DNA of 40,340 nt, taken from the IMG/VR virus record IMGVR_UViG_3300046368_000469, positions 1 through 40,340 of that record. One strand, given 5' to 3'. The first letter of the stretch is position 1. Every line of letters starts with the position of its first letter. Under the pieces are notes generated by a model. That model had not been told where the DNA came from. It was given only the letters and a program-made list of their open reading frames with translations, and ran no database searches. The position numbers were made by a program, and so were the translations under genes. The DNA comes from a virus. Below are positions 16,860 to 31,085 of the stretch, piece after piece.

Positions 16860-17019
16860 CAACAAAGGGCTGACCTTGCCGAGCGATGTCACTCTCTAGG
16901 CATCTACAAATGTATTCCGAAAAATTCATTCGCAGTTCGTCGGCTCTTTGTATCGCTCGCTCAACAAGCAAAGGATCCATGCTAATGGACTTGGTTATGT
17001 AAGTCCGTCCGTTGGGCAT
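16807..17019 (-). CDS. Ribbon-helix-helix DNA-binding protein (70 aa)
   Basis: I start at the ATG at 17019 (MPNGRTYITKSISMDP); the frame opens further at 17079, but that increases overlap with the neighbour. TYITKSISMDPLLVERAIQRADELRMNFSEYICRCLESDI fits an Arc/MetJ-type fold: a strand followed by two helices with the typical N-F-S-E-Y turn. It is one of only two minus-strand genes, convergent with the integrase. It likely acts as a lysogeny or excision regulator. Confidence 0.6.
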   Translation of the reverse strand: MPNGRTYITKSISMDPLLVERAIQRADELRMNFSEYICRCLESDIARQGQPFVVMPLAESRNTRQKHRKK

Positions 17020-17209
17020 TGATTTGCTCTTTGTTTTTATGGCAAAGCTCCACAATGGGTGAGACTTTCCCTTCCTCAATGTAAATCAGGGAGGACTCAA
17101 TAAGCCATTTGATTGTTGTTGTTGTTTTCTTCTCTCTCAAGAAGCGTTGGCATTTTTTGACTCCTTCTAGCGTTTCGCTGTCAAAGAGTAAGTTTATTCT
17201 GTTATTCAT
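16982..17209 (-). CDS. Second small DNA-binding (ribbon-helix-helix-like) regulator (75 aa)
   Basis: The frame encodes MNNRINLLFDSETLEGVKK followed by a helix and TTTIKWLIESSLIYIEEGK, again compatible with a ribbon-helix-helix regulator. It overlaps its minus-strand neighbour by 38 bp and reads away from the excisionase-like gene, so 17210-17369 is a divergent control region. A repressor maintaining lysogeny is a reasonable guess; the strand reversal relative to all lytic genes fits. Confidence 0.55.
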   Translation of the reverse strand: MNNRINLLFDSETLEGVKKCQRFLREKKTTTTIKWLIESSLIYIEEGKVSPIVELCHKNKEQINAQRTDLHNQVH

Positions 17210-17267
17210 AAATTAGGGAAAAAAAACTTTTTTGTATAAATAAAGAAAAAATCGAAATCTATAATAC

Positions 17268-17341
17268 ATAAAGCAACACAAAGGGTGATAAAGCAACACA
17301 AAAAACAAAAGTTGAAATATTAAGCCTTTTTGTGTTGCTTT
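17268..17341. promoter_or_regulatory. Divergent control region with three ATAAAGCAACACAAA operators
   Basis: ATAAAGCAACACAAA occurs at 17268-17282 and 17288-17302, exactly 20 bp apart, and its inverted copy TTTGTGTTGCTTT at 17329-17341. The 160-bp gap (17210-17369) separates the minus-strand regulators from the plus-strand excisionase-like gene. This is the most likely genetic-switch region: one regulator binding phased sites could silence both directions. The core also recurs twice upstream of the integrase. Confidence 0.65.
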
Positions 17342-17369
17342 GTGCTTTCTTGTGCCTAGTTGTTCATTC

Positions 17370-17555
17370 ATGCCAATAGCAAACACAATAACAAGCGAAG
17401 TTTTATTTACCGATGAGGTTAGAAAGCTTCTCAGATATAAAAGCAATGAATCGGTTTGCAGATTAGTAAGGGCGGGAAGACTAAAGCCATTATCGAAAAG
17501 CAAGCCTTACAGATTCAGCCGAGTAGCAATCGAAAGATTCTTACAAGGTGATTAA
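17370..17555 (+). CDS. Excisionase-like helix-turn-helix protein (61 aa)
   Basis: I start at ATG 17370 (MPIANTITSEVLFTDEV), the first after the repeats; the frame opens at 17340. LFTDEVRKLLRYKSNESVCRLVRAGRLKPLSKSKPYRFSRVAIERFLQG is a typical MerR/excisionase (HTH_17) fold, with the RF-S-x-x-A-I-E-x-FL ending of that family. Placement at the head of the rightward operon and near int suggests a directionality factor or early regulator. Confidence 0.7.
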   Translation: MPIANTITSEVLFTDEVRKLLRYKSNESVCRLVRAGRLKPLSKSKPYRFSRVAIERFLQGD

Positions 17556-17627
17556 TAAAATAACAATGCCCTGCCCACCAAAAGGCAGACAAGGCACTAA
17601 CACGATAAACATACAAAAACAATAATA

Positions 17628-18356
17628 ATGACAGATAGCAAGTTAATAGACGCGATAGCAGATGCGAACGCAAGACTACAGGAGCAGGGAGTCAATGTTC
17701 AGGGCGGGAAAAAATACCTAATGGTTAAGGATAGGGTAATAATTTTCCGACAACATTATGGCGACCATTACGGAATCGAAACAAGCATGATTCAAGCCGA
17801 CAGCGACAGGGTTGTTGTTCATGCTAAGATTACAAACTCAGATGGGCTTACAATTGGTAGCGGACTAGGCGAAGAGCAGAGAGACAGCCGAGGAGTTAAT
17901 TCTACATCAGCCCTAGAAAACGCAGAGACATCTGCGATAGGTCGAGCACTAGCAAGCTTGGGGTTACATGGCGGGGAATACGCATCTGCTGACGAAATGG
18001 TTCAAGCAATGCAGGCACAAGAGAAACCTCAAAGAGTTGAGAATACACCAACGGCTCAGGTCTTTGACGCTGATTGGCAAAATACAATTGTTCCAAATAC
18101 TAAGCACAAGGGCAAGAAGCTTGGAGAATTGGCACAGGGTTCACTCAAATGGTTTATTGAGAATTGGCAACCTTGGAGGGGGAGCGATGGAGACAGAGAG
18201 CCTACGCAAGAGCACATCGATTTTAGAAGTGCTATTGATTCCGCAAATAAAGACCTGTTTTCAAATGGCTCAGAGGTTCAGCCCACAGATGAGATCTCAG
18301 GGCAGACATCAGGCGACCCTACTGATCCTGAGTTAGACGAGGAGGTGCCCTTCTGA
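17628..18356 (+). CDS. ssDNA-annealing / recombination-type protein (242 aa)
   Basis: The central segment SALENAETSAIGRALASLGLHGGEYASADEM (about residues 90-125) matches a signature common to phage single-strand annealing or ssDNA-handling proteins (ERF/Sak-like group). The C-terminal part contains an NTKHKGKKLGELAQGSLKWFIENW module often fused to such proteins, and an acidic tail ending PELDEEVPF, as on ssDNA-binding proteins. It starts the replication and recombination block and is coupled (TGATG) to a tiny membrane gene. The exact family is uncertain. Confidence 0.55.
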   Translation: MTDSKLIDAIADANARLQEQGVNVQGGKKYLMVKDRVIIFRQHYGDHYGIETSMIQADSDRVVVHAKITNSDGLTIGSGLGEEQRDSRGVNSTSALENAETSAIGRALASLGLHGGEYASADEMVQAMQAQEKPQRVENTPTAQVFDADWQNTIVPNTKHKGKKLGELAQGSLKWFIENWQPWRGSDGDREPTQEHIDFRSAIDSANKDLFSNGSEVQPTDEISGQTSGDPTDPELDEEVPF

Positions 18357-18520
18357 TGGATACAATTGGATTTATTTTACTTTCAATTAGCTACCTAGCA
18401 CTCCTGTCTTACTTTTATAAACAGGCTTACTTTGAAAGGATGCGGGCAAATTACTTAGCGAAAAGCAACAAGGATTTACACGCAGAGAACAAGTACTACA
18501 GGGAACGCTACCCAAATTAA
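18356..18520 (+). CDS. Small membrane protein (54 aa)
   Basis: The ATG at 18356 overlaps the upstream stop (TGATG). Residues 4-21 form a hydrophobic helix (IGFILLSISYLALLSYFY), followed by a charged helical tail (YLAKSNKDLHAENKYYRERY). It is one of several very small membrane peptides in the early region. Function is unknown; the topology N-out with cytoplasmic coil is a guess. Confidence 0.5.
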   Translation: MDTIGFILLSISYLALLSYFYKQAYFERMRANYLAKSNKDLHAENKYYRERYPN

Positions 18521-18538
18521 TAACTAAGAAATAACACG

Positions 18539-19288
18539 ATGAATATTATATACGACATAGAAACTCGACCCCATGAAAAAACTTACAACGCAATGCTCGC
18601 AGAGGAGCCACAATTTAATGCGGACAGCGTTGCCATTGGAAACCTCAAGGACGAGGAAAAGATAAAAAAGAAGATCATTGACGCAGGAATTGCTCACGAA
18701 AAGAAAATGATCGAATGGAGAGCGAAGCAGAAAAAAACTTGTTGCCTTGACCCCGACCTTGGACAGCTCTCAGCGATTGGCATTCTGACCGTTGAGACAG
18801 GTACTTACGAAATCATCGATGCGACCGAAGATGAAGCAAAAGCACTCGAGCGATGGTGGGAAATATGCGACTCTACAATTCGCAAGGGTTGCTTGGCGTT
18901 CGGATGGAATACGGACAACTTTGATTTACCATTCTTGTTCGGCAGGAGCCGACTTTTAGGGGTCGAGTACGATTGGACATACATTACCAATTACAGATTC
19001 TTCCACTCAGGATTCGTTGACCTTCATAAGACTTGGACATTCGGGCAGTTTGGAAAGTTCTGCAAATTAGACAAAGCTTGCAGGGCACTTGGTTTTGTTG
19101 AGCCTGACAATGAAGTTAACGGAGCTACATTCCACGAGTATTACGAGCGAGGGGGAGAAGACCAAAAGAAAGCAGAGGCATATCTCAAGAATGACTTGGA
19201 CATGAGCTTCTGTGTTGGAAAAGCTACGCATGGGTTGAGAGTTCGGGATAATGTCAAGGACGGAGATGCTTTTGGAGATGCACATTAA
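18539..19288 (+). CDS. DEDDy-type 3'-5' exonuclease (249 aa)
   Basis: The three exonuclease motifs of the DnaQ fold are visible: YDIETR with Asp6 and Glu8, GWNTDNFDLPFL with Asp129, and YLKNDLDMSF with Tyr215 and Asp219 (YxxxD, hence DEDDy). It probably processes DNA ends in phage replication or recombination with the annealing protein upstream. An insertion between residues 20 and 75 is Lys-rich. The ATG is preceded by a TAACACGAT leader. Confidence 0.85.
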   Translation: MNIIYDIETRPHEKTYNAMLAEEPQFNADSVAIGNLKDEEKIKKKIIDAGIAHEKKMIEWRAKQKKTCCLDPDLGQLSAIGILTVETGTYEIIDATEDEAKALERWWEICDSTIRKGCLAFGWNTDNFDLPFLFGRSRLLGVEYDWTYITNYRFFHSGFVDLHKTWTFGQFGKFCKLDKACRALGFVEPDNEVNGATFHEYYERGGEDQKKAEAYLKNDLDMSFCVGKATHGLRVRDNVKDGDAFGDAH

Positions 19289-19571
19289 TTCACTCTTGGC
19301 ATTTGATGAAGCTCGCAAATTACTTAATGACAGATGCCAAAAGATAATAAGGGTCATTGAGAAATATCCTGACTCAACTGACAGGGATATTCTGCGAGAG
19401 CTTGGATGGTCAGACATGAATATGGTAAGACCTAGAATTACTGAGCTTATACAAAAAGGAATGGTTATTGAATCAGGCTCTATGACTTGCGGAATTACAG
19501 GTCGCAAGTGCAGGACGCTTGGCAAGCCTATCTTTGAGCATGAGGGACAACTTAAAATGTTCGGAATATGA
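19251..19571 (+). CDS. Winged-helix DNA-binding protein (about 97-106 aa)
   Basis: The frame opens at ATG 19251, but ATG 19266 or 19278 are alternatives and AAGGA at 19256-19260 favours 19266. The protein has a RDILRELGWSDMNMVRPRITELIQKGMVIESG segment that fits a winged helix-turn-helix, then CGITGRKCRTLG. It overlaps the exonuclease end and is coupled to the replication initiator by ATGA. It probably assists replication or regulates the operon. Confidence 0.55.
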   Translation: MSRTEMLLEMHINSLLAFDEARKLLNDRCQKIIRVIEKYPDSTDRDILRELGWSDMNMVRPRITELIQKGMVIESGSMTCGITGRKCRTLGKPIFEHEGQLKMFGI

Positions 19572-20293
19572 AGATGAGATTTACCGACATTGAGAAGTGG
19601 AGAAAATTATGGTTTCGGGATCTATGTCCCGAAGCCAAGTTACTTCTGCTTTACCTTTTTGATAATTGCGGGGACGCAGGAGTTATTGAAAAAGATCCCA
19701 TACGCTATGCGTTTGATATAGGTCTTGCAATTGATGACATCAATACAGCTATGACCGAATTAATCGGACATCAAAAATTGAGGCACATTGATACTCGCTA
19801 CATGCTCTTACCTAGCTTTGTTAAGTTTCAATACCCAAAGGGATTAAAGAAGGGCTACAACCCTCACAAAAGCGTTTGGCGAGAAATACAAAAGCATGAA
19901 CTAGACCCTTTTGAGTTAGGGATTGATTCAAGCCTTGCCCAAGCCTTGCCCAAGCCTTCCAAGATAAAGGATAAGATAAGGGATAAGATAAGGAATAAGG
20001 ATAAGATAAAGAGACTATGGTTACGAGCGAGCGGGGGAGACATTAGCCCACGACTAACAATTGATGCCGACAGGCTCTCTACAATATCCAAATACCTAGA
20101 AACTTATTCATGGTTACAGCTCGTCAGAGTTTGGCAACAAGCAGGCAGAAGCGACTTTCTTACAAATAGAAAAGGTAAGAATCGCAACGGATGGCAAGCG
20201 ACCTTTGATTGGATTCATGCACCAAAGAATTGGCGGAAGCTGACAGAGGGAGAATATGACAACCGAGAACGAAAGGCTACTCATGGATTCTGA
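19568..20293 (+). CDS. Replication initiator, DnaD / lambda-O-like (241 aa)
   Basis: The N-terminal region (FRDLCPEAKLLLLYLFDNCGDAGVIEKDP) resembles winged-helix phage replisome organisers. A Lys/Asp/Ile low-complexity linker (residues about 135-150) is encoded by iteron-like DNA repeats, and the C-terminal part (NRNGWQATFDWIHAPKNWRKLTEGEYDN) is the conserved loader-contacting end found in such initiators. A DnaC-like gene follows directly. An origin inside the gene, as in lambda O, is likely. Confidence 0.7.
   Translation: MKMRFTDIEKWRKLWFRDLCPEAKLLLLYLFDNCGDAGVIEKDPIRYAFDIGLAIDDINTAMTELIGHQKLRHIDTRYMLLPSFVKFQYPKGLKKGYNPHKSVWREIQKHELDPFELGIDSSLAQALPKPSKIKDKIRDKIRNKDKIKRLWLRASGGDISPRLTIDADRLSTISKYLETYSWLQLVRVWQQAGRSDFLTNRKGKNRNGWQATFDWIHAPKNWRKLTEGEYDNRERKATHGF
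19929..20010 (+). repeat. Iteron-like repeats inside initiator gene; candidate replication origin
   Basis: Two repeat families are adjacent. CAAGCCTTGCC recurs three times at 11-bp period (19929, 19940, 19951, the last one base shorter), and GGATAAGATAA occurs at 19969, 19981 and 19999. Repeats within the initiator gene beside an AT-rich stretch mirror the lambda-type origin located in gene O. Confidence 0.6.
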
Positions 20294-21029
20294 GCCACAA
20301 AAGCTGTTTACTCAGACTGAATCTAGGGTAGTTACTAGGATCTGCGAAGAGTCAGGCAAGGAGTTTACTCTCAATCAAACACGCTATGGTGAGATATGGT
20401 TTCCCGAAATAAAATACTGCGACGAAGTTTTGCAAAGACATGCAGACGAGGAACGCAGGGAGGGAATACGCAAGCGAAATGAAATGAGGGAAGAAATAAG
20501 GGAGAAGTGGATAGACCAAAACATACCTTATTACTTCAAGGCTGACCTTGATCGCTCGCATGAGCTAGATTGGCGAGCAGTCGATCAGGCACTCAAATGG
20601 AAATACAGCTACGATTCTCAGAATCAAAGCTTAGTCCTAAAAGGCGAGACTCGGAAAGGTAAGACAAGATCCGCCTACGAGATCATCAAGAAAAACGCAC
20701 TTCTGTTTCCTTACATTGATACAGCGGAGCGAATAGCGAGAAAACTAGGTGCAAGCCTGAGCCAATCTACAAGATTGCATGAGCAGAGCATACAGCATTT
20801 ATGCAATGTAAAACTTCTATGCATCGATGACTTAGGAAAAGAGGGTGTTACGCATAGAACTCAAACTGACTTATTTGAGATAATAAACCGCAGACTGGAA
20901 CACAACCGCCCGACAATAATAACTACGAACTTCGATGGCGAGAGCTTGCTACATAGATTCCCCGACGAGGAGCTTGCTCGCCCTTTGATCGCAAGGATAA
21001 GGGAATACAAGGTCATTGAGTTCAATTAA
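20256..21029 (+). CDS. DnaC-like helicase loader ATPase (257 aa)
   Basis: A Cys-containing N-terminal part (CEESGKEF, KYCDEVLQ) is followed by an AAA+ domain with a Walker A at about 130-137 (GETRKGKT) and a Walker B at about 187-192 (LLCIDD). Later TIITTNFDGESLLHRF provides the sensor-1-like segment typical of DnaC and IstB. It should load the host replicative helicase at the phage origin. GGGAG just before ATG 20256 supports that start. It overlaps the initiator gene by 38 bp. Confidence 0.82.
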   Translation: MTTENERLLMDSEPQKLFTQTESRVVTRICEESGKEFTLNQTRYGEIWFPEIKYCDEVLQRHADEERREGIRKRNEMREEIREKWIDQNIPYYFKADLDRSHELDWRAVDQALKWKYSYDSQNQSLVLKGETRKGKTRSAYEIIKKNALLFPYIDTAERIARKLGASLSQSTRLHEQSIQHLCNVKLLCIDDLGKEGVTHRTQTDLFEIINRRLEHNRPTIITTNFDGESLLHRFPDEELARPLIARIREYKVIEFN

Positions 21030-21294
21030 GCAATACAACCCACCCTTTGAGTTCTTGGCTGAATCAAGTAACAAGAAGGAGGCTTACAAAATAGACCTGT
21101 TAGGTGATGGGGGTAATGGAGAATGCTCCTGCCCTCATTACCAATACAGGCTCAAGAATTTACTTAGTCAGGGGTATCCGCCTAGTTCTAATACTAGGTG
21201 CAAGCACATTCTTAGAGCGAGAAACCTTTGCCTTAGTCTAATAATAAGGGAGGTAATACAGCAAAATGCAGAACGAGCAAAAGTTTTGGATTAA
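21016..21294 (+). CDS. SWIM-type zinc-finger protein (92 aa)
   Basis: The only available start seems to be TTG 21016, overlapping the loader end by 14 bp. CSCPHY (residues 37-42) and TRCKHILRARNL downstream give the C-x-C-(n)-C-x-H arrangement of SWIM zinc fingers, which bind DNA or protein. It is translationally coupled between the loader and RusA, so a role in replication or recombination is likely. Confidence 0.6.
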   Translation: MSSIKQYNPPFEFLAESSNKKEAYKIDLLGDGGNGECSCPHYQYRLKNLLSQGYPPSSNTRCKHILRARNLCLSLIIREVIQQNAERAKVLD

Positions 21295-21706
21295 TTGCGT
21301 ACCACCCAAAAGCACACATCAAAGTGCTTTGCGTATTTTTAAGATGAAGAACGGCAGGCAATTCATCGGTAGAGATAGTAAAGGTCTTGCTGTTGATCAA
21401 ATGCTACAAAAATTATTACTCCCATTTAAACCAAGTGTCCCACTCGATTGTGCAGTCGATTTGTCCATACGGTGGGTTTTCCCATACAGAAAGAATGAGC
21501 CAAAGAAAAACCGACAGGCTCCCCTGCCCTGCATTACAAGACCTGATGTAGACAACCTTACTAAAGGCTTATTGGATGCGATGACGAAAGTAGGTTTTTG
21601 GAAAGATGATTCTCTGATTTTTCGTATACAATTTGAAAAGTTTTTTTCAGAAAATTCGGGCATAGGTGTAATAATCCGCACCAATATTGGCAGTCCGAGC
21701 GATTAA
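21266..21706 (+). CDS. rusA: RusA-type Holliday junction resolvase (146 aa)
   Basis: RPDVDNLTKGLLDAMTKVGFWKDD (residues 92-115) is the RusA signature, with catalytic-type acids at Asp94, Asp96 and Asp114/115. Length fits the family (about 120-150 aa). It resolves branched DNA before packaging. GGGAGG upstream of ATG 21266 is a good ribosome site. It is the last gene of the replication block before the first palindromic promoter. Confidence 0.9.
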   Translation: MQNEQKFWINCVPPKSTHQSALRIFKMKNGRQFIGRDSKGLAVDQMLQKLLLPFKPSVPLDCAVDLSIRWVFPYRKNEPKKNRQAPLPCITRPDVDNLTKGLLDAMTKVGFWKDDSLIFRIQFEKFFSENSGIGVIIRTNIGSPSD

Positions 21707-21733
21707 ATTATTTTAAAAAAAGTGTTTTAGGGC

Positions 21734-21762
21734 TTGCAATTATGCGAACCCTCGCATAGTAT
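21734..21762 (+). promoter_or_regulatory. Promoter with embedded palindromic operator, copy 1
   Basis: A -35 TTGCAA (21734-21739) and a -10 TAGTAT (21757-21762) are 17 bp apart. A perfect palindrome TATGCGA-N4-TCGCATA at 21741-21758 fills the spacer. A bound dimer here would block RNA polymerase. It precedes a group of small genes from 21805. Confidence 0.8.
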
Positions 21763-21804
21763 GGTTTACATAATCTTAATTATTAACTTCAAAAAATCTA
21801 ACAT

Positions 21805-22005
21805 ATGAAATTCCAAATCAACTCAATTATCTCAATCAAAGGACAGCCTCACATTTGGCAGATCGTTAATCATTCTTCACCAATAAATGTAACATGCCGA
21901 ATGGTTGAAAACACAACCGAAGTTAAGAAAGATTTTAATCCTCGGACATCTATTACGGAAAGCGAAATTGAAAGCGTTTTAATTTATGACGCAATATCCG
22001 AATAA
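21805..22005 (+). CDS. Small hypothetical protein (66 aa)
   Basis: This is the first gene after operator-promoter 1. The product starts MKFQINSIISIKGQPHIWQIV and looks like a small beta-barrel, ending acidic. I do not recognise a family. Early expression and small size fit host-takeover proteins. Confidence 0.55.
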   Translation: MKFQINSIISIKGQPHIWQIVNHSSPINVTCRMVENTTEVKKDFNPRTSITESEIESVLIYDAISE

Positions 22006-22030
22006 AACTTAACACAAGGAGACTAACACG

Positions 22031-22324
22031 ATGAACCACATACAATTACTTGAAGAGCTAAAAGAGCTTACCAAATGGAACTACCATACAACCGCTAGGG
22101 CTACGCTCGTTAAGCACCTCCTTGAGGTTAATGAAAACGAAAAGACAAATAAGGGCTTAAAGTTACTTAGAAAGTCTTACTCTTTGATAGCAAGGCGACA
22201 ATCTTTTGACGGCTATCTTTCGAAGAAATCACGCACACTTAGGGATGAAGCAGATGACATTCTTTACATGCTTTTACTTAAGGTTCTACCAATACAATCC
22301 AAGGCACTTTGGGGAGCACTTTAA
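22031..22324 (+). CDS. Hypothetical helical protein (97 aa)
   Basis: The ATG is preceded by AAGGAGACTAACACG, giving a good ribosome site. The protein is basic and helical (ELKELTKWNYHTTARATLVKH, then KLLRKSYSLIARRQSF) and may bind nucleic acid. No family was recognised. It lies in the operator-1 operon. Confidence 0.55.
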   Translation: MNHIQLLEELKELTKWNYHTTARATLVKHLLEVNENEKTNKGLKLLRKSYSLIARRQSFDGYLSKKSRTLRDEADDILYMLLLKVLPIQSKALWGAL

Positions 22325-22339
22325 TAACAAACACAAGGA

Positions 22340-22352
22340 GACTAACACGATG
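22340..22352 (+). promoter_or_regulatory. Recurrent leader motif ACTAACACGAT before early genes
   Basis: GACTAACACGATG occurs identically at 22021-22033, 22340-22352 and 22527-22539. Close variants lie at 17595-17606, 18532-18540, 22893-22904 and 24173-24184. In most the final ATG is the start codon. Only some copies are preceded by AAGGAG, so the motif is not itself a Shine-Dalgarno. It could be a translational regulator or ribosome-binding context. Confidence 0.6.
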
Positions 22353-22520
22353 AAATCAAAACAAAAACAAGCACTCAAAGAACTCAAGCAACAAGCAAAA
22401 TGTTACAGAGGTTTAGATTACCCCTGTGAGGAAACATTCAATTATCTAAAATTTCAAAAACAATTACTGAACAAAAAATACGGAATTAAAATTAATTTAA
22501 ACCTCAGCCACGCCAACTAA
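22350..22520 (+). CDS. Small basic hypothetical protein (56 aa)
   Basis: The start at ATG 22350 is set by AAGGAG plus the leader motif; the open frame upstream belongs to the neighbour's region. The product is Lys/Gln-rich and helical (KSKQKQALKELKQQAK) with two Cys (AKCYRGLDYPCEE). Function is unknown. Confidence 0.55.
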   Translation: MKSKQKQALKELKQQAKCYRGLDYPCEETFNYLKFQKQLLNKKYGIKINLNLSHAN

Positions 22521-22536
22521 TACAGAGACTAACACG

Positions 22537-22842
22537 ATGACCAAAACAAAACCAAATCAGATTACCAAAGATGTTTTACAAATCTTTAATAATTTTAGAG
22601 CGTTCGGACTTAAGCAAGTCATACAACATAGCGAAGACAAAATAGTTTGCCACTTTCGCCACGGCATGAAGAAAAGAATAACCATGATCACTTTTGAGAT
22701 TAACCGAGGCTTGGACCTTTACAATGTTTCATTTGGCAAGATCTTTAAGCACGAATACAAAGAGCTTGCACGATTGGACGATTGCTATGTTGACCAACTA
22801 CGAGAAGTTGTTGAGCACGAGACAGGTTACATCATTTTATAA
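22537..22842 (+). CDS. Hypothetical protein (101 aa)
   Basis: The start follows GACTAACACG. The protein combines a helical N terminus with strands (KIVCHFRHGMKKRITMITFEINRG) and an acidic C terminus. No family was recognised. It is the last gene before operator-promoter 2. Confidence 0.5.
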   Translation: MTKTKPNQITKDVLQIFNNFRAFGLKQVIQHSEDKIVCHFRHGMKKRITMITFEINRGLDLYNVSFGKIFKHEYKELARLDDCYVDQLREVVEHETGYIIL

Positions 22843-22845
22843 TTC

Positions 22846-22874
22846 TTGACCATATGCAATCGTTCGCATATAGT
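22846..22874 (+). promoter_or_regulatory. Promoter with embedded palindromic operator, copy 2
   Basis: TTGACC (22846-22851) and TATAGT (22869-22874) are spaced 17 bp. The spacer holds TATGCAA-N4-TCGCATA (22853-22870), one mismatch from the perfect palindrome of copy 1. It precedes the 29-aa peptide and the cyclotransferase-like gene. Confidence 0.78.
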
Positions 22875-22901
22875 TAATAACTACTAACAACAACTAGCAC
22901 G

Positions 22902-22991
22902 ATGATATACGAAATACTAAACCACATAATTTTTCTGCCTTGGGCAGTAATACTTTTCTTCATTACGAAAGGAATCTTAACCGATGAATAA
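22902..22991 (+). CDS. Tiny membrane peptide (29 aa)
   Basis: The frame starts after CTAGCACG and overlaps the next gene by 8 bases. The product is almost entirely a hydrophobic helix (ILNHIIFLPWAVILFFITKG). Being the first gene after promoter 2 and overlapping the GGCT-like gene supports expression. It could anchor or regulate; unknown. Confidence 0.45.
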   Translation: MIYEILNHIIFLPWAVILFFITKGILTDE

Positions 22992-23397
22992 GGAATTACT
23001 TTTCGTTTACGGAACCCTCAAGCGAGGACATGGTAATAATCGACTGCTCTTCGGACAAAAATACATGGGCAAAGCAATTACCGAGCGTCCTTACATTATG
23101 GCAAGCAGGGGAATACCCTATGTTTATGAATGGAACAGGGCTGAACAAAATGACGAGATCATAAGAGGCAAGCCAATACACGGAGAGATATACCAAGTCG
23201 ACCCTGATGCCCTTGCAGGCATTGACAGACTAGAAGGACACCCAAGGTGGTACAGGCGAAAGATCATCCCCATTGAATTACACGCAGAGGTCACTACGCG
23301 GATACATGCATGGATATATTTTATGAGCGATTACATCACGACCCCCAAATGCATTTTAAAAATTAAATCACAAATGAAAATATCAGATCGTTTCTAA
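22984..23397 (+). CDS. Gamma-glutamylcyclotransferase-fold (GGCT/AIG2-like) protein (137 aa)
   Basis: VYGTLKRG (residues 8-15) is the substrate-loop signature of the fold, and GEIYQVDPDALAGIDRLEGHPRWYRR carries the catalytic-type Glu84 in D-R-L-E-G. Family members release 5-oxoproline from gamma-glutamyl or related amine conjugates. Together with the amidoligase and amidotransferase at 24186-25858, and sharing their operator, it likely acts in the same amide-ligation pathway, either removing or editing conjugates. Confidence 0.85.
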   Translation: MNKELLFVYGTLKRGHGNNRLLFGQKYMGKAITERPYIMASRGIPYVYEWNRAEQNDEIIRGKPIHGEIYQVDPDALAGIDRLEGHPRWYRRKIIPIELHAEVTTRIHAWIYFMSDYITTPKCILKIKSQMKISDRF

Positions 23398-23732
23398 TGA
23401 AGGTATTACAATGGTTCAGAGAAGGTCAGGATCGGCTACCAATAGAGATAGTCGGAAGCAATGAAAAGTTACTAATTACAACCCTCGCAATAATTGCGAA
23501 TACAAGGAGAATAAAAATACAAATGACTGATGAAGAAAATGAAACTATCGACTGCGATGTAAAAATTACGCTCAAGGAGTTTTCGGACAAAATCAATTGG
23601 TTACGCTTCAAAATGAATTACAATTATGTCGAGACTCAAAGATATTTTAAGCGAGTACATCACATTGAGAAAGATCAATTTGAAGAGCTAAGTCAAAGAC
23701 TTGATGAAAGCGAAGATTCTTGTTTGGAATAA
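23397..23732 (+). CDS. Hypothetical protein (111 aa)
   Basis: The start overlaps the GGCT stop (TAATG). The protein has a hydrophobic strand/helix (LLITTLAIIANTRRIKIQMT) and a charged C-terminal helix region (KDQFEELSQRLDESED). No family was recognised. Transcriptional linkage suggests a role with the GGCT-like protein. It is followed by a structured region and a terminator. Confidence 0.5.
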   Translation: MKVLQWFREGQDRLPIEIVGSNEKLLITTLAIIANTRRIKIQMTDEENETIDCDVKITLKEFSDKINWLRFKMNYNYVETQRYFKRVHHIEKDQFEELSQRLDESEDSCLE

Positions 23733-23740
23733 ACAATACC

Positions 23741-23819
23741 GAGAGACCTTTCTTAATTGGGTCGCAAGCGATAAAGCCTAGTCAGGGCAACAAATCCTGA
23801 CCATAAGGCATAAGCTCTC
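23741..23819 (+). ncRNA. Candidate structured RNA before a terminator
   Basis: Nested pairings can be drawn by eye: GAGAG (23741-23745) with CTCTC (23815-23819) closing the element; ACC/GGT (23746-23748 with 23760-23762); and a long hairpin GCCT-A-GTCAGG (23776-23786) with CCTGAC-CATA-AGGC (23796-23809). It is noncoding, 8 bases after a stop codon, and ends 3 bases before a rho-independent terminator. It could be a small RNA or 3' UTR processing element. Confidence 0.4.
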
Positions 23820-23822
23820 TTA

Positions 23823-23856
23823 CCCCTCAAGTTGTGTTAGGCTTGGGGGGTTTTTT
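23823..23856 (+). terminator. Rho-independent terminator
   Basis: A 9-bp stem CCCCTCAAG (23823-23831) / CTTGGGGGG (23842-23850), with one G-T wobble and a 10-base loop, is followed by TTTTTT. It ends the operator-2 transcription unit. Confidence 0.88.
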
Positions 23857-23860
23857 GTGC

Positions 23861-24034
23861 TAGGTGGACTTAGGTGGACTTAGGTGGACTTAGGTGGAGG
23901 AATATATGTGGAATATATGTGAGATATATGTGGAATATACAAATCTGCACAAAGCTGTAGTAGTCTGTAATTTTCTACCAATGTGGAGCTATGTGGAGCA
24001 ATCCGTGGAGCGATTGGGAGCGATTGGGAGCGAT
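23861..24034 (+). repeat. Phased GTGGA repeat array in a 450-bp gene-free region
   Basis: Between 23733 and 24185 there is no convincing gene. After the terminator come four TAGGTGGACT-type units (10-bp period, 23861-23900), then three GGAATATATGT-type units (11-bp, 23899-23931), then spaced GTGGAGC copies and a double CGATTGGGAG (24011-24030). The core GTGGA recurs about nine times, mostly on one helical face. Possible roles: second origin, partition or regulator binding site. Confidence 0.6.
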
Positions 24035-24103
24035 GCGACAAACTCCTGTAAAAACACTAATATTAAATTAGAGTAATTTTTTTCCCAAATAATTTCTAAA
24101 AGC

Positions 24104-24133
24104 TTGACATATATGCGAAGTTTCGCATAATGG
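24104..24133 (+). promoter_or_regulatory. Promoter with embedded palindromic operator, copy 3
   Basis: TTGACA (24104-24109) and TAATGG (24128-24133, 18-bp spacer; ATAATG with 17) flank a perfect TATGCGA-N4-TCGCATA at 24112-24129. It sits 53 bp before the amidoligase start, behind a CACTAACACGAT leader. Confidence 0.8.
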
Positions 24134-24185
24134 ATCTTATACTTAATTAATTTAACTCTAAAAAAAACCTAACACTAACACGATT

Positions 24186-25139
24186 ATGAAAACAAAAGCA
24201 CAAGCCCTCGAAATTATCAAAAACCTTACTTTCGGGGTTGAGATCGAATGCATGTTCCCAAAAGACAGAGCAATCGAGCACAGCATCTTAACCAACCCCA
24301 CCCATTGGAGCCACCCAATTTGGATGGGTCACATCAGTACCAACGGAGAAAGCCTTTCGCAATGGGGCGCAAGTTGGGATCAGACAATTACACGCAAAGA
24401 AGGGTTTGCGCCTATCGAGTTCAATTCCAAGGTCCTCAAAGGCGAGCAAGGTCTAAAGGAGATCATTAAGTTTTTTACATGGCTCGCAGACATGGGAGCA
24501 GAAGTTGATCGCTCCTGCGGACTGCACATCCATCTTGGAGCAAAGCAACTTTGTGAGGGGCTTGACCTTGACCAAGCTATCGAGCAACTTTGCAAGACCT
24601 TAAAATTTGGAAACAGCATCAAGTCGGCAATCTTTGCGCAGGCAGGAAGCGCTCATCGATTCCTCAATGGGACTTGGGCACGCACAAGCGTTCGCAATGC
24701 TCGCCAAAGAATTGACAGCAAGGAAGACATTCCCTGCTTCGGAGGAAAATACTTCTTTATTAATACCCGCAATATTGCGAGCAACGGCATAAGCTCAAAC
24801 AAAGCTACAATAGAGTTTCGCGCTTTTGCGGGCACTACTAATTACCTCAAAGTTCTAAATCATCTAATGACTGCATTTGTTACCGTTTACGCAGGAATGC
24901 GTTACTCCCGCACAAGTTGGGAATCACGCAACCAAACAGCCGACAAGGGCTTGGAGAGTTACAACGCTCTTATCAGCACTTGGAGCAATCACCCAATGCT
25001 TACCCAGTTCCCTACATTCCAAGCCGAAAAGCGAAAAATGTTCAAGATCGGACGCAAGATGGCTAAAAAATTCGTCACAAACATTCGCAGAGCGGTTACT
25101 CGTTCTAATGGAAGCCTTGACCTCAATCGTTTTGCTTGA
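24186..25139 (+). CDS. Phage amidoligase, carboxylate-amine ligase fold (317 aa)
   Basis: Signature motifs of the Amidoligase_2 family are visible: FGVEIE (residues 16-21), APIEFNSKVL (about 75-85), SCGLHIHLG (about 110-118) and ATIEFRAFAGTTN (about 207-219). These Glu, His and Arg residues form the ATP/metal site of this glutamine-synthetase/GshA-related fold. The family makes amide bonds between a carboxylate and an amine, often a peptide or small molecule. The basic C-terminal tail is unusual. It is followed closely by a glutamine amidotransferase and shares an operator with the GGCT-like gene. Confidence 0.88.
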   Translation: MKTKAQALEIIKNLTFGVEIECMFPKDRAIEHSILTNPTHWSHPIWMGHISTNGESLSQWGASWDQTITRKEGFAPIEFNSKVLKGEQGLKEIIKFFTWLADMGAEVDRSCGLHIHLGAKQLCEGLDLDQAIEQLCKTLKFGNSIKSAIFAQAGSAHRFLNGTWARTSVRNARQRIDSKEDIPCFGGKYFFINTRNIASNGISSNKATIEFRAFAGTTNYLKVLNHLMTAFVTVYAGMRYSRTSWESRNQTADKGLESYNALISTWSNHPMLTQFPTFQAEKRKMFKIGRKMAKKFVTNIRRAVTRSNGSLDLNRFA

Positions 25140-25183
25140 GGTTAATAACTAATAACAACCACAAACACGAAAGGAATTACAAA

Positions 25184-25858
25184 ATGTGTGTTATAATTTT
25201 TTCACCAAGCAAGGGATCCCGACCATCAGGGAGAACCCTCGACTTATGCAATAAAGCAAACCCTCACGGAATTGGGATAGTAACACAGGGATCACGCAAA
25301 ATGTTCAGCGTTAGCAAGGGCGTTTCAATGAGTTACCTAAAAAAGACTTTAAGAAATACCGAGGGGGCAATTGCTATCCACTTCAGATATGCTACAATCG
25401 GGGGCACAGAGTCTGCCCTATGCCACCCCTTCCCCTGCACCGAAAAAGCGGAATCGTGGCTAGACTACGAAGCTACGGATGTTTTAATGACTAACGGCAC
25501 TTGGTTGAACTTTGAGCAAAGCTACGAAGTTGCTCGCAAGCTAACCAAGACAAGCAGACTCAAGGGCGAAGTTTCAGATACTCGAGCGATGGCACAGATA
25601 GTTGGATCTACACGCTCACATGATTGGCTTAGGAATATAACTGACAAGCATCCACAGAGCACAAGGGTTCGCTCCTTATATATGACCAAGGGCAATGCCA
25701 AGCGGATGCACTTCTATGGCAAGTGGGAGGACTACGAGGGTTGTAAATTCTCAAACCTACGATGGAAGCCGAGCAAGTTCAGGGCACGCAAATTTCTAGC
25801 ACATAAACCATCCGCAACACAGGAGGACTTTTCATCATGGCTCAAGCTAAAATACTAA
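25184..25858 (+). CDS. Class II glutamine amidotransferase (Ntn hydrolase, 224 aa)
   Basis: I start at ATG 25184 (AAGGA upstream), which puts Cys at position 2, as required for the N-terminal nucleophile; the frame extends to a TTG at 25136. Expected motifs follow: AIHFRYATIG (His66, Arg68), CHPFP (His81), LMTNGTW (Asn104-Gly105) and SDTRAMAQIV. Such domains free ammonia from glutamine for a partner enzyme; here the partner is probably the amidoligase. The C-terminal part is basic. It overlaps the HTH gene by 22 bp. Confidence 0.85.
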   Translation: MCVIIFSPSKGSRPSGRTLDLCNKANPHGIGIVTQGSRKMFSVSKGVSMSYLKKTLRNTEGAIAIHFRYATIGGTESALCHPFPCTEKAESWLDYEATDVLMTNGTWLNFEQSYEVARKLTKTSRLKGEVSDTRAMAQIVGSTRSHDWLRNITDKHPQSTRVRSLYMTKGNAKRMHFYGKWEDYEGCKFSNLRWKPSKFRARKFLAHKPSATQEDFSSWLKLKY

Positions 25859-26238
25859 ACTACTTGACAAATGCGAATAATCGCATAGAAATATACGAGA
25901 TGCGATTGCAAGCAATTTTAGACAGAACACAAAGAGTCATTGAGCGAAGCGACGCACGGATGGCTGACCTTGCAAGGTTCTTGGGCAAGAATTGGAACCA
26001 ATGCCACGAATGGTTAATAAAGAGAAACCATTTACCGAATGCAGAGGTAGCACTTGGAATGATGCATTTTATTGCGATTTACGATAAGAGCGGAGGACGG
26101 GATGTTCGCTTTTCTGACAATCAAAAAATAATGGTAGATGGGAGAGAGTTGACGGAATGGGAAAGCGACCTTTGGATCGAAAACCAAATGCTGAAAACAA
26201 TGATTGCGTCTCAGGTTGGCAAGCATGACAAAGAATGA
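25837..26238 (+). CDS. Helix-turn-helix protein, candidate regulator of the palindromic promoters (133 aa)
   Basis: AGGAGG 10 bases before ATG 25837 supports this start. RMADLARFLGKNWNQCHEWLIKRNHLPNAEVALGMMHF (about residues 41-78) looks like a Cro/CI-type HTH. The C-terminal part (RELTEWESDLWIENQMLKTMIASQ) is a probable oligomerisation helix. Codons 10-19 contain operator copy 4, so its own expression or that of downstream genes could be controlled by the same factor. Identity as the regulator is inference. Confidence 0.55.
   Translation: MAQAKILNYLTNANNRIEIYEMRLQAILDRTQRVIERSDARMADLARFLGKNWNQCHEWLIKRNHLPNAEVALGMMHFIAIYDKSGGRDVRFSDNQKIMVDGRELTEWESDLWIENQMLKTMIASQVGKHDKE
25864..25891 (+). 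promoter_or_regulatory. Promoter-like palindrome, copy 4, inside the HTH gene
   Basis: TTGACA (25864-25869) is followed by AATGCGA-N4-TCGCATA (25870-25887), one mismatch from perfect, and TAGAAA (25886-25891, 16-bp spacer). The -10 is weak. It may be an internal promoter for downstream genes or a roadblock operator for autoregulation. Confidence 0.6.
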
Positions 26239-26509
26239 TTTACAACTAGCACTCGAAAAATGTTACTGGAGATATGCCCGAACACTTGGGCGTATCCCTC
26301 ATCATTACACCTTGCGGAAGACATGGAAGTCAGACGAATTTTTTGATCAAGCAGTTATTACCTTACGAGAGAACTCCGTAGACGAAATGTTTGGCAGGAA
26401 AACTTTCAAATATTGTTACCTTGGAAACTTCAAGTATTGGACAATGGGATCTCCCGTAGAAAGGACTATTCTCATCAATAAGGTACAAATTAACTTGGGC
26501 AAAGGTTAG
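26225..26509 (+). CDS. Hypothetical protein (94 aa)
   Basis: I take ATG 26225 (MTKNDLQLALEKCYWRYARTLG), overlapping the HTH stop by 14 bp. The product has aromatic-rich segments (KTFKYCYLGNFKYWTMGSPVERTILINK). No family was recognised. It lies between the HTH gene and a GNAT gene in the same direction, probably one transcript. Confidence 0.5.
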   Translation: MTKNDLQLALEKCYWRYARTLGRIPHHYTLRKTWKSDEFFDQAVITLRENSVDEMFGRKTFKYCYLGNFKYWTMGSPVERTILINKVQINLGKG

Positions 26510-26530
26510 TAATAGTTAATAACCGACAAT

Positions 26531-26884
26531 ATGATTAAGCAGATTGTAAATGCCCAAATACAACCATATGAAGCGGAGATGAAAAGGGCAATGTTGACGC
26601 TTGCAGGTGTAGACTTCCTGTATGGCAAATTCGTAAATAATTCCCTGATCGGTTGGGCGGGGGTCAAAGCCACAAAAGGCAAATACATATACAAGACCGC
26701 TTATGTTTTAGAGCCATTTAGAAGACAAGGTCATTACACGGAACTCTTGAGGCACTTATTACAACATCACAGCGATAAACTCATAGAGGCAGTATGCACG
26801 CCAATGTCTTACAATTTATATAAGCGCGAAGGATTTACCACACTAAAGGTTTACAAAAACAAATGTAAAAAAGTTATAAAATGA
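26531..26884 (+). CDS. GNAT-family acetyltransferase (117 aa)
   Basis: YVLEPFRRQGHYTELLRHLL contains the acetyl-CoA pyrophosphate loop (RRQGHY, residues 64-69; the family pattern is Q/RxxGxG/A) and PMSYNLYKREGFTTLKVY is the usual C-terminal strand-helix-strand. It is on the short side for the family. The substrate is unknown. It overlaps the first ParB-fold gene by ATGA, linking it to the cassette that follows. Confidence 0.75.
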   Translation: MIKQIVNAQIQPYEAEMKRAMLTLAGVDFLYGKFVNNSLIGWAGVKATKGKYIYKTAYVLEPFRRQGHYTELLRHLLQHHSDKLIEAVCTPMSYNLYKREGFTTLKVYKNKCKKVIK

Positions 26885-27492
26885 GAATAAATTGCACATA
26901 CAGTAAATTGGCAAAGATTGACGAGCTAAGACCAAATCCAAATAACCCGAATCAGCACACGGAAGATCAACTAAGTAGGTTGGCTAAGATCTTAGAGTAT
27001 CAGGGGTGGAGGCACCCTATTGTTGTGTCTAAGCTGTCGGGTTTCGTTGTTAGTGGTCATGGACGGTTGTTGGCGTCAAGGCTCGCAGGATTTACGGAGG
27101 TTCCGATTGATGAGCAGGATTACAACTCAGAAGAAGAGGAGATGGCTGACCTCATCGCTGACAACAAAATTGCAGAGCTTGCAGAATGGAATCAGATACG
27201 CCTTAATGATCAGCTTGCAAAATTAAATAGCAAACTGGATGACATTGAGGTCAGCGGATACAACGATATTGATCTTACGGAAATAGCCGAGGGACTGTTT
27301 CGACCAACACTTGATCCGTCTTCAACAGGATCGCAGGTTACAGGAGAAGATGTAACTGCGGTTAGCAATTCATTGAGCGGAGCATACCAAGGAGCACCTA
27401 GAGAGAATGCCATGCGGTCGGTTACTTGTCCTAGTTGTGGGGAGGAATTTAGTATAGACATTAACGAAATCCCAAGACCTCCTGCAAATTGA
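26881..27492 (+). CDS. ParB/Srx-fold protein with C-terminal CxxC motif (203 aa)
   Basis: LRPNPNNPNQHTEDQLSRLAKILEYQGW and VVSGHGRLLASRLAGF (SGHGR, residues 58-62) are the two conserved parts of the ParB N-terminal domain. The C terminus has CPSCGEEF. This ParB subtype often precedes or is fused to phage DNA methyltransferases, but none is here. Instead it is coupled (ATTGA overlap) to an IbrA-like protein. It may bind DNA or CTP, guide modification, or regulate, as IbrB does. Confidence 0.8.
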   Translation: MRINCTYSKLAKIDELRPNPNNPNQHTEDQLSRLAKILEYQGWRHPIVVSKLSGFVVSGHGRLLASRLAGFTEVPIDEQDYNSEEEEMADLIADNKIAELAEWNQIRLNDQLAKLNSKLDDIEVSGYNDIDLTEIAEGLFRPTLDPSSTGSQVTGEDVTAVSNSLSGAYQGAPRENAMRSVTCPSCGEEFSIDINEIPRPPAN

Positions 27493-28703
27493 TAGCTTAC
27501 CTTAAGCACAATGTCCTAGAAGGTGCTAGGTCAAGAATCGAATATTTATTTGATGAATTTGACCAAGTAATAGTCAGCTTTAGTGGTGGCAAGGATTCTA
27601 CCATTGTCCTCAACCTTGCACTAGAGATAGCCGAGGCAAAAGGTAAACTACCATTACCTGTTCTCTTCTTAGACCAAGAAGCTGAGTGGGAATCTGCGGT
27701 AAAATACATAAGAGAGGTAATGACCGATGATCGGGTCGAGCCTTTTTGGTTACAAATACCAATCAGAATATTCAATGCTACATCTGCAAAAGATCCTTGG
27801 CTTTGGTGTTGGGCAGATGGCGAGGAGTGGATGCGTGAGAAAGAAGAATACGCAATAAAAGAAAATGTGTATGGCACAGATCGCTTTCACGCTCTTTTCC
27901 CTGCTTTCGCAAGGCATCACTTTAAGGATAAGACAACTGCGTTTCTAGCAGGCGTAAGATGCGAGGAAAGCCCGAACCGCTTGGTGTCCTTAACTGACAA
28001 GGCAACCTATAAGCACATAACTTATGGTAAGGTACTTTCTAAGCCTTTGAATCATTACACTTTTTACCCGATATATGATTGGGCATTTAGTGATGTATGG
28101 AAGGCAATTTATGACCATGATTGGTCTTATGCAGGCATTTACGATCAGTATTACAGATATGGTGTGCCAAAGCCAAATATGCGGGTATCAAATTTACACC
28201 ATGAGACCGCAGTTCATTCTTTGACATGGATGCATGAGCTAGAAGCGGATACATGGAATAAGCTGAACAAAAGATTGGGTGGAATTAATCAGTCAAAGCA
28301 TTACAACCGCAAAGATTTGTATGCGGTCAAAGAGTTGCCATTCATGTTCAGCGGATGGAGGGAATACAGGGACTATTTACTTGAGAATCTGGTGGAAGAT
28401 CCGAACCACAAGGAAGCTTTTACTAGGAAATTTGCTAAACTAGACATTTTGTATTGGGAAGCCGTTGATAAAGACCGCCTTTACAAGGCAGAGATTACAA
28501 CAATATTGCACAATGATTTTGAGGGAACAAAGCTTGAAAACTTCCGTAACATTAACTGCAATATTGCCTTTAGAACATGGAAGAATGGTAGACCATATCT
28601 ACCCCGTCCACGGAATGAGCTAATTATGATCCCTTACGAGGGAAAGTATAAATTCGCAGAGTATGCAAAGATGCATCCTGAGAAGATATATCAAGAGACA
28701 TGA
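27489..28703 (+). CDS. PAPS reductase-family, IbrA-like protein (DUF3440 type, 404 aa)
   Basis: The PP-loop SGGKDS (residues 32-37) and following DQEAEW, AFLAGVRCEES and YPIYDWAFSDVWKAIYDHDWSY mark the IbrA/DUF3440 group of PAPS-reductase-like ATP pyrophosphatases. Start is TTG 27489, because residues right after it (NVLEGARSRIEYLF) belong to the conserved N terminus and no ATG is near. In E. coli IbrA acts with the ParB-like IbrB; this phage has ParB genes on both sides. Family members adenylate or transfer sulfur; the substrate here is unknown. Confidence 0.82.
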   Translation: MIAYLKHNVLEGARSRIEYLFDEFDQVIVSFSGGKDSTIVLNLALEIAEAKGKLPLPVLFLDQEAEWESAVKYIREVMTDDRVEPFWLQIPIRIFNATSAKDPWLWCWADGEEWMREKEEYAIKENVYGTDRFHALFPAFARHHFKDKTTAFLAGVRCEESPNRLVSLTDKATYKHITYGKVLSKPLNHYTFYPIYDWAFSDVWKAIYDHDWSYAGIYDQYYRYGVPKPNMRVSNLHHETAVHSLTWMHELEADTWNKLNKRLGGINQSKHYNRKDLYAVKELPFMFSGWREYRDYLLENLVEDPNHKEAFTRKFAKLDILYWEAVDKDRLYKAEITTILHNDFEGTKLENFRNINCNIAFRTWKNGRPYLPRPRNELIMIPYEGKYKFAEYAKMHPEKIYQET

Positions 28704-29491
28704 AGAAGACTATAATCATTTGTTCCTGCAGACCTAAGCTGATGTGCAGATTCATTGATTCATTTTATGCGCACAATATGGACGAGCAAGGTTGGGACAT
28801 CGCGTTAATGGCGCAAAAATACAGCCCTGAAGAACTTCAAGAGTTGAGAGAAAAGGATAGGTCAGCCTTATGTAAAATAATGCCAACTGAACAATTAATT
28901 GCACCATATATTGCAAAAAATACATTGCTCGAAATGCATCCCGCAGATGCTTACTGCTCCCTTGATGACGATTGCGTAATCCTTGAGCAAACAAACTACG
29001 AGCCTGTTATACATTTTATACAAGATCCATTAGTAGGTTTAGTAAGCACAAACTGGGTTCGATTCAATAAGCCAAGTTTCATGGCAAAAAAAACTATTGA
29101 GGACAAATACATGCAACAGAAGATCGTTTACACAGGTGGTGGTATGCTCTTCGGTCAAGGTGTAGCAAAGATCCTTATTAACAAGCCCCGAACAGATTGG
29201 CTTTTCGACAATGTTCAATATTCTCTAGACATTTATACGGCGGGTTACACAAACTTTCGATACCTTGGAAGCGTAACAGAGCACAATATAGTTATCGGAG
29301 GTGGGAAAAAGCGTCTGCTCAATGACAGGCAAATGATACCAAACGACTCGAACCTTGTAGTTATGAAGCGAGGGACTGTTTCGAAATATAAATACGATAA
29401 CGAGTATTACATGCCGAACGATTCAAACTTAACGGTGTTGTCCCACGCCATGCATAAGAGGAACAGGCTAAAACTTACCGGCAATGAATGA
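28700..29491 (+). CDS. GT-A-like glycosyltransferase-type protein (263 aa)
   Basis: The protein begins with a beta strand KKTIIICSCRPKLMCRFIDSF and has YCSLDDDCVILE (around residue 95), a good DxD-type metal/sugar-nucleotide motif, then VYTGGGMLFGQG and GSVTEHNIVIGG. This pattern fits a nucleotide-diphospho-sugar transferase. It is overlapped by ATGA with the IbrA-like gene and by 8 bases with a tiny membrane peptide, so it belongs to the same cassette. The acceptor (DNA base, protein or surface sugar) is unknown. Confidence 0.55.
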   Translation: MKKTIIICSCRPKLMCRFIDSFYAHNMDEQGWDIALMAQKYSPEELQELREKDRSALCKIMPTEQLIAPYIAKNTLLEMHPADAYCSLDDDCVILEQTNYEPVIHFIQDPLVGLVSTNWVRFNKPSFMAKKTIEDKYMQQKIVYTGGGMLFGQGVAKILINKPRTDWLFDNVQYSLDIYTAGYTNFRYLGSVTEHNIVIGGGKKRLLNDRQMIPNDSNLVVMKRGTVSKYKYDNEYYMPNDSNLTVLSHAMHKRNRLKLTGNE

Positions 29492-29561
29492 CCTAATGTT
29501 CATTTTTACATTTATATTTTGTGGAATAATTATCCTAGCATGGATGTATGACTTTTTATGA
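29484..29561 (+). CDS. Tiny membrane peptide (25 aa)
   Basis: A 26-codon frame begins inside the end of the upstream gene and ends in ATGA shared with the next start (29558). The product is one hydrophobic helix (MFIFTFIFCGIIILAWMYDFL). The double overlap suggests it is translated. Function is unknown. Confidence 0.35.
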   Translation: MNDLMFIFTFIFCGIIILAWMYDFL

Positions 29562-30241
29562 GTAAATTACCAAAAAACGCAGAAAAAACATTAAATGATC
29601 TTGTAGCTACAATTGAAGGGCTAGAAAATGATGAAGAAAGGGTAAAATTCTTTGAGTTAATCAGAGAGGTTCTGAATCGGTCCCACCCTATTCAATCGCA
29701 ACCAATTGACCGAGTAAGATGGGTAAACATCGAAGAGGTGCAGGCAAATGATTACAACCCAAACAGCGTGGCATCAAAAGAAATGCAATTACTTTATACC
29801 TCAATTAAAGAGGATGGTTATACTCAACCGATTGTTACGATTAGAGATGAAGCAATTAAAAAATATATAATAATTGACGGATTTCATCGGTATTTTACCG
29901 CCAAATCTAACAAGGACATTCTTGAGCGAAACAAGGGCAAGTTACCAATTGTTGTCCTGAACAAAGAAATTAACCAAAGGATGGCGTCAACAGTCCGCCA
30001 CAACAGGGCTAGAGGCTCGCACAGCGTTTCAGGTATGAGCAATATGGTTTTTAAGATGCTAGACAATGGGTGGGCAGATGAAGCCATTTGTAATCACCTT
30101 GGTATGGATGCTGAAGAATTAGTCCGTTTGAAGCATATTACAGGCTTTTCAAAGCTTTTTGCTAATGCGGAATACAGCAAAGCATGGGTAAAGCGTAATC
30201 AGATAAAACTAGCAAAGGAGCATAACCATACGATAAAATGA
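29558..30241 (+). CDS. Second ParB/Srx-fold protein, IbrB-like (227 aa)
   Basis: WVNIEEVQANDYNPNSVASKEMQLLYTSIKEDGYTQPIV and YIIIDGFHRYFTA (IDGFHR, residues 106-111) form the ParB-like domain. NQRMASTVRHNRARGSHSV and a helical C terminus (ICNHLGMDAEELVRLKHITG) give an HTH-like DNA-binding part. This matches the IbrB type, partner of IbrA in E. coli. It differs clearly from the ParB protein at 26881 and is coupled by ATGA to the next gene. Confidence 0.8.
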   Translation: MSKLPKNAEKTLNDLVATIEGLENDEERVKFFELIREVLNRSHPIQSQPIDRVRWVNIEEVQANDYNPNSVASKEMQLLYTSIKEDGYTQPIVTIRDEAIKKYIIIDGFHRYFTAKSNKDILERNKGKLPIVVLNKEINQRMASTVRHNRARGSHSVSGMSNMVFKMLDNGWADEAICNHLGMDAEELVRLKHITGFSKLFANAEYSKAWVKRNQIKLAKEHNHTIK

Positions 30242-30711
30242 GCCGTAAAGCTCCATTCATTAGTAGAAAATATGCACTAGGCGATTGGGGTAACGCTAAG
30301 TATGAGGACGATTTCTTCTTTGATGAAGAGACAAAGGAGTGGGCAAGCGAATCTGACAAAGCGGTTGCTTTACTATCAGAAGCACTAGGCGAAATGCTTA
30401 CATGGTTATCAGATGGAAACATGAAGAGCAAAGGTTACAAGGATTGTGTAGCTAAGAAGACCATTGCACTCGTGTGGTGTATGAGACCCGATTTATTAGG
30501 TAATAAGTCGTTACGAGAAATTTCAAGCCTGGGGGGGGTAGCGGTAACACCCGCTTCTCTGTCTAAGCATGTAGCATATTTTACTCAGCAGTTCGGAAGG
30601 TTTCACAATGGAACCAAGAGCGATGACGCAAAAGAGAAATACAGGGATTCAGCAATAAAATCACATAAGAAACGAAAAAGAGGAACTAAGGGCGGGGGTA
30701 ACAGCCAATAA
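30238..30711 (+). CDS. Hypothetical protein with Lys/Arg-rich tail (157 aa)
   Basis: The middle part (LREISSLGGVAVTPASLSKHVAYFTQQFG) looks like a helix-turn-helix of the type that checks for a replication or packaging site, and the C terminus is strongly basic (KSHKKRKRGTKGGG), so DNA binding is likely. A run of eight G residues lies at 30531-30538. The family is not recognised. It starts by ATGA overlap with the second ParB gene. Confidence 0.5.
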   Translation: MSRKAPFISRKYALGDWGNAKYEDDFFFDEETKEWASESDKAVALLSEALGEMLTWLSDGNMKSKGYKDCVAKKTIALVWCMRPDLLGNKSLREISSLGGVAVTPASLSKHVAYFTQQFGRFHNGTKSDDAKEKYRDSAIKSHKKRKRGTKGGGNSQ

Positions 30712-30713
30712 TT

Positions 30714-31085
30714 ATGGAGGGTGATATTAGTACAGAGGTGAGGGCTTGTTTGGCATTAGCTGAAGCATTCGACAAAAAGGACATATCATGTCCACCACAT
30801 AATCATATGGATGATGAATTGGAGGGTAAATACGGAAGACGCAAGAAGGATAAACACAGGGATCTTAAATCTGAAATGGAAGGAAGGCTCAATGTCATGT
30901 ATGACCTCATCAATAATAGACCCCTTAGCCACCATGACATAAGGAACGGATACGCAAGGGAGCACTTGATTTATTTATTAGGATGCCAAATATATTCATT
31001 GGCAAAACAAATTCATAAGGAATCTTTTTTTACTAAAACACAGCAGGGATTGGCAGAGCCATGCAAGGGTTCTCTAACGAAATGA
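30714..31085 (+). CDS. Hypothetical protein (123 aa)
   Basis: The product has a His-rich loop (CPPHNHMDDE), a charged stretch (GRRKKDKHRDLKSEMEGR) and a helical C terminus. No family was recognised. It precedes the small terminase by about 80 bp. Confidence 0.45.
   Translation: MEGDISTEVRACLALAEAFDKKDISCPPHNHMDDELEGKYGRRKKDKHRDLKSEMEGRLNVMYDLINNRPLSHHDIRNGYAREHLIYLLGCQIYSLAKQIHKESFFTKTQQGLAEPCKGSLTK

Follow-up and report, generated by a model that had tools for sequence, protein, structure and literature searches.

In every Aca family studied, an inverted repeat lies inside the core promoter (PMC9410906). Aca10 binds a palindrome between the -35 and -10 boxes, at a site that spans -35 to -10 of a TTGCAA-N16-TATTCT promoter (PMC9410881, PMC9410906), and Aca2 is a 116-aa helix-turn-helix (HTH) autorepressor (PMC8434428). 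Multiple copies of a single repressor site within a phage genome are also seen in the stoperators of mycobacteriophages (PMC9283540).

Here we describe four neighbouring predicted promoters in the genome of an uncultured phage lineage that carry one and the same palindrome, which, judging from its sequence and placement, is very probably the operator of a dimeric repressor. As with the Aca proteins, the palindrome lies inside the core promoter and a small HTH protein is encoded together with the genes that it would control; by analogy, the system may work like the known Aca-type phage repressors. In contrast to them, it comprises several promoters rather than one operon, its repression is predicted, its candidate repressor has no match to families of the general libraries, and no known anti-CRISPR gene was identified in its block. 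With the Cro/CI repressors (P22 c2, 434 Cro fold) it shares an XRE/Cro-CI HTH fold, predicted here, and operators lying over promoters, whereas the 112 residues of the candidate show no cleavage domain, its gene lies away from the integrase, and the operators in the window (the whole stretch of DNA analysed, 40,340 bases) do not form a divergent switch. Stoperators resemble the present sites as many copies of a single repressor site in a phage genome, but they are asymmetric and stop elongation genome-wide, whereas the window sites are palindromic and occur only inside the promoters of one block.

The two ends of the window overlap by 361 bases (1-361 versus 39980-40340) at 98.9% identity, which suggests that the circular map is complete at about 39,980 bases; the four mismatches in the overlap suggest population variation. 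The host of the phage probably belongs to the Verrucomicrobia, because the TerL relatives in genomes come from MAGs of Verrucomicrobiales (41%) and Akkermansiaceae (27%), a match on a Spirochaetia contig being much weaker. A search of phage records by DNA returned no match to the window. The genome encodes an integrase, just upstream of which lies a segment (15616-15661), probably attP, that by eye looks like a tRNA-Gly(TCC) 3' half including CCA; ARAGORN detected no complete tRNA there, and the 44-base tRNA-Gly 3' segment, taken as attP, had no match with at most one mismatch in 388 genomes of the phylum.

Table. Features of the window, with promoters, operators and regulatory targets as predicted
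Feature	Position	Strand	Description
Window	1-40,340		Whole IMG/VR virus record, 41.6% GC
Predicted promoter/operator 1	21734..21762	+	-35 TTGCAA 21734-21739; TATGCGA-ACCC-TCGCATA 21741-21758; -10 TAGTAT 21757-21762
Conserved leader ATAATCTTAATTA	21770..21782	+	Directly 3' of promoter 1
Unit 1: four small genes, 66, 97, 56, 101 aa	21805..22842	+	Predicted target of promoter 1
Predicted promoter/operator 2	22846..22874	+	-35 TTGACC 22846-22851; TATGCAA-TCGT-TCGCATA 22853-22870; -10 TATAGT 22869-22874
GGCT-like (gamma-glutamyl cyclotransferase/AIG2) gene	22984..23397	+	PF06094 E=5e-19; phrog_2520
Predicted promoter/operator 3	24104..24131	+	-35 TTGACA 24104-24109; TATGCGA-AGTT-TCGCATA 24112-24129; -10 CATAAT 24126-24131
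Amidoligase_2 gene	24186..25139	+	PF12224 E=3.3e-10; phrog_2443
Class II glutamine amidotransferase-like gene	25184..25858	+	Starts MCVII; GATase_6 in 1/6 family members (E=0.0015)
Predicted promoter/operator 4	25864..25891	+	-35 TTGACA 25864-25869; AATGCGA-ATAA-TCGCATA 25870-25887; weak -10 TAGAAA 25886-25891
Candidate repressor, 112 aa	25900..26238	+	Predicted XRE/Cro-CI-like HTH, then beta hairpin, C-terminal helix

The initial annotation had reported the 18-base palindrome TATGCGA-N4-TCGCATA at four places, two of them perfect and two with one mismatch, each following the start of a TTGACA-like box by 6-8 bases and overlapping the -10. A motif scan of the window reproduced its coordinates, its mismatch counts (0, 1, 0 and 1) and its distances, the TTG boxes beginning 7, 7, 8 and 6 bases 5' of palindromes 1-4. 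The overlap with the -10 is clear at sites 1-3, where the spacers are 17, 17 and 16 bases; at site 4, with a spacer of 16, the -10 itself is weak. The possibility that the palindrome also lies at random places in the genome fell away, as no further copy with two or fewer mismatches exists in all 40,340 bases. In 100 dinucleotide shuffles, sites with at most one mismatch were never obtained and those with at most two averaged 0.1, against four in the real sequence. When both strands of 15500-32000 were scored for promoter-like matches, sites 3 (11/12) and 2 (10/12) came out on top, a score of 10/12 being reached by one other match, at 29842; the total of such matches in this region was not above that in shuffles. 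Rfam returned a below-threshold mir-15 match alone, taken as chance.

The 66-, 97- and 101-aa products of unit 1 had no match in Pfam. The predicted targets of promoter 2 are a peptide of about 29 aa, the GGCT-like gene and 23397-23732, and a terminator at 23822-23851 ends this unit; those of promoter 3 are the amidoligase and glutamine amidotransferase-like genes, the window copy of the latter having no direct Pfam match. One block, 22984-25858, holds the GGCT gene together with those for the amidoligase and the class II amidotransferase-like protein, and homologues of the last two are also present on an Akkermansiaceae MAG contig (L107). Three short tandem repeat arrays with periods of 10, 11 and 10, possibly iterons, lie 5' of promoter 3, at 23861-24034.

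Scanning was extended to related phages, as the initial annotation had proposed, with relatives found by a TerL search and sites by a 3-mismatch scan and a promoter-aware scan. Six IMG/VR relatives carry the palindrome 5' of homologous genes, with the TTG box again 6-8 bases upstream, and at the level of sequence this recurrence supports the idea of a regulon. Profile searches with the HTH and amidotransferase proteins recovered the identical six, while the integrase and the amidoligase, used as single-sequence queries, found no relatives among viral contigs. The 20 sites listed from the seven genomes (the window, G003, G004, G005, G006, G007 and L104) were chosen by hand from both scans and include one weak site with four mismatches (G006:6563). 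Their TTG is invariant, although the scans in part favoured sites with a nearby TTG, so that the box is not wholly independent as evidence; sites found by palindrome only (G003:4700, 6648 and 8469; G004:729 and 2471) also have the box. Position 5 of the arm is an invariant C in both arms of all 20. Homologues of site 1 follow rusA in G003, G004, G006 and L104, those of site 3 precede the amidoligase gene in the same four and in G007, and those of site 4, with more mismatches, precede the HTH gene in G003, G004 and G005.

A leave-one-genome-out profile, blind to the TTG box, placed the window sites at ranks 1-4 (24.2, 24.2, 21.3 and 20.1; next 10.7) and the four sites of L104 likewise at ranks 1-4. 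In G003, TATACGATGAACCGCATA, which has no TTG box, ranks 4/5, and the profile alone is therefore not perfectly specific. This sequence was not counted as a site in G003 or G004, since it falls in the TerL region and has no TTG box at 6-8 bases. We also set aside the 61 exact motif matches in IMG/VR, mostly unrelated and few with an adjoining TTGAC-like box by eye; two among them, L031 and L038, sit on contigs of the relatives. Because the seven genomes represent one lineage, a small related sample in which several contigs are fragments, co-occurrence partly reflects shared descent.

A palindrome recurring in this way might simply belong to a strong promoter cassette that recombination has copied from module to module, with no protein reading it. 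In G003, two promoter cassettes are indeed almost identical and a third shares their leader, and ATAATCTTAATTA travels with the sites: the window has one copy, G003 three, and G004, G006 and L104 two each, confined in these five genomes to the operator strand, 3' of operators. However, the arms keep their symmetry although the N4 centre differs between sites, and some of the changes in the arms are themselves symmetric, namely TATACGA/TCGTACA in two L104 sites and a G at position 7 of either arm in two G006 sites, which would be needless for a plain promoter; dimer sites in a spacer of 16-17 bases are, besides, consistent with repression. We therefore regard the cassette as quite improbable. 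MerR-type promoters have spacers of 19-20 bases, and MerR-type activation was discarded given the 16-17 found here. A resemblance of site 3 to XerC/dif, noticed by eye, was likewise put aside, as the left arm and the -35 are also conserved. Read as an operator, the palindrome would probably allow one repressor to shut the whole block off together, since four neighbouring promoters carry it and the relatives keep it.

On balance, the 112-aa protein encoded at 25900 is the likely repressor of the palindromes. Its gene, which the initial annotation had begun at 25837, probably starts at ATG 25900, because homology extends from residue 22 of the longer frame only, L104 has no open extension 5' of the equivalent position, and the G006 and G007 homologues start there; site 4 consequently lies upstream of the gene and not inside it. 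The protein is encoded next to the block in 7/7 site-bearing genomes, and the HTH gene and the sites are both missing from L107, the distant contig that carries the amidoligase and amidotransferase homologues. Homologues align over a nearly unbroken MADLARFL-KNWNQCHEWL stretch in which KNWNQCHEW is invariant. The AlphaFold2 model that was kept (mean pLDDT 71; the other four reached only 50-58) has four helices, at 3-15, 21-28, 32-41 and 48-61, followed by a hairpin and a further helix at the C-terminus. Its top fold matches, weak with PDB E values of 0.059 and up, are nearly all to HTH proteins of the Cro/CI kind (P22 c2, CylR2, DdrO, SinR) and point to a lambda-repressor-like HTH fold, Aca11 appearing only among the weak ones. 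Pfam, PHROGs and NCBIfam gave no significant match, leaving the protein outside their curated HTH families. The predicted XRE/Cro-CI fold and the presence in all seven genomes nevertheless favour the role of regulator that had been suggested for it.

Two overlapping small ORFs on the minus strand (16807-17209), by eye like ribbon-helix-helix (RHH) proteins, are convergent with the integrase gene and have homologues in G003. RHH dimers recognise short palindromes, and with an integrase in the phage a lysogeny repressor, RHH-like or excisionase-like and encoded beside it at 16807-17555, might own the sites; this we consider very improbable. Pfam assigns no RHH family to the two ORFs, and 16800-17700 contains no site with three or fewer mismatches. 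G006, moreover, keeps the sites without any of these genes: in it, 146 bases separate the glycosyltransferase-like gene from the homologue of the gene at 17628, and this gap holds none of the integrase, RHH and excisionase-like genes, which makes these proteins unlikely regulators.

Phages borrow host operators, and the size of the palindrome and its N4 spacing are like those of some LexA boxes; a host-encoded repressor, LexA-like or other, might thus read the operator, and the block would then respond to the state of the host, for example to a DNA-damage signal. The LexA motif of Verrucomicrobia, however, is reportedly TGTTC-N4-GAACA, a different sequence. Exact sites numbered only eight, in 5/368 genomes sampled from the phylum to which the nearest TerL-bearing genome belongs, a sample that may miss the true host, and no host regulon was apparent among them. 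By eye, these eight lie mostly in repeats or GC-rich stretches with no repeated promoter arrangement, and only in L115 is the site closely preceded by a TTGACA, which stands 12 bases upstream of it. We judge a host-encoded reader unlikely.

For the phage-encoded HTH protein, control of its own gene can be considered separately. The start of the -35 lies 35-38 bases from the HTH ATG in 7/7 genomes (manual count), from which we predict a probably near-leaderless mRNA; in the window, transcription from promoter 4 is predicted to start no more than a few bases from ATG 25900. In the profile, the operator of the HTH gene is the weakest in G003 and G004 and third of four in the window; it is the sole site seen in the G005 fragment, and it is absent from L104 and G006 and poor in G007, all three of which keep the -35. 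This pattern of weakness fits an autorepressor that would repress itself least, but the missing or poor operators in the last three genomes mean that autoregulation is not universal in the lineage, and they count against this protein as the repressor.

Taken as a whole, we find the following explanation reasonably likely. A phage-encoded dimeric repressor, probably the 112-aa XRE-type HTH protein, would read the palindrome, a single dimer occupying the -35 to -10 spacer and thereby excluding host RNA polymerase from the four promoters. On phage entry, host RNA polymerase would transcribe all four; expression from the fourth would let the HTH protein build up until the block is shut off, its own gene being repressed less through the weaker operator. 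More tentatively, and by analogy, an Aca-like repressor may here join separate accessory-gene promoters in one shut-off regulon, with the operator marking early host-acting, possibly counter-defence, genes.

For an uncultured, probably Verrucomicrobia-infecting lineage, these predictions provide a testable control circuit in which the operator, the candidate repressor and the targets are named. The unexplained set of amidoligase, amidotransferase and GGCT genes is tied to a single predicted control point, and the predicted operator may serve as a probe with which related phages are searched for additional regulon members.
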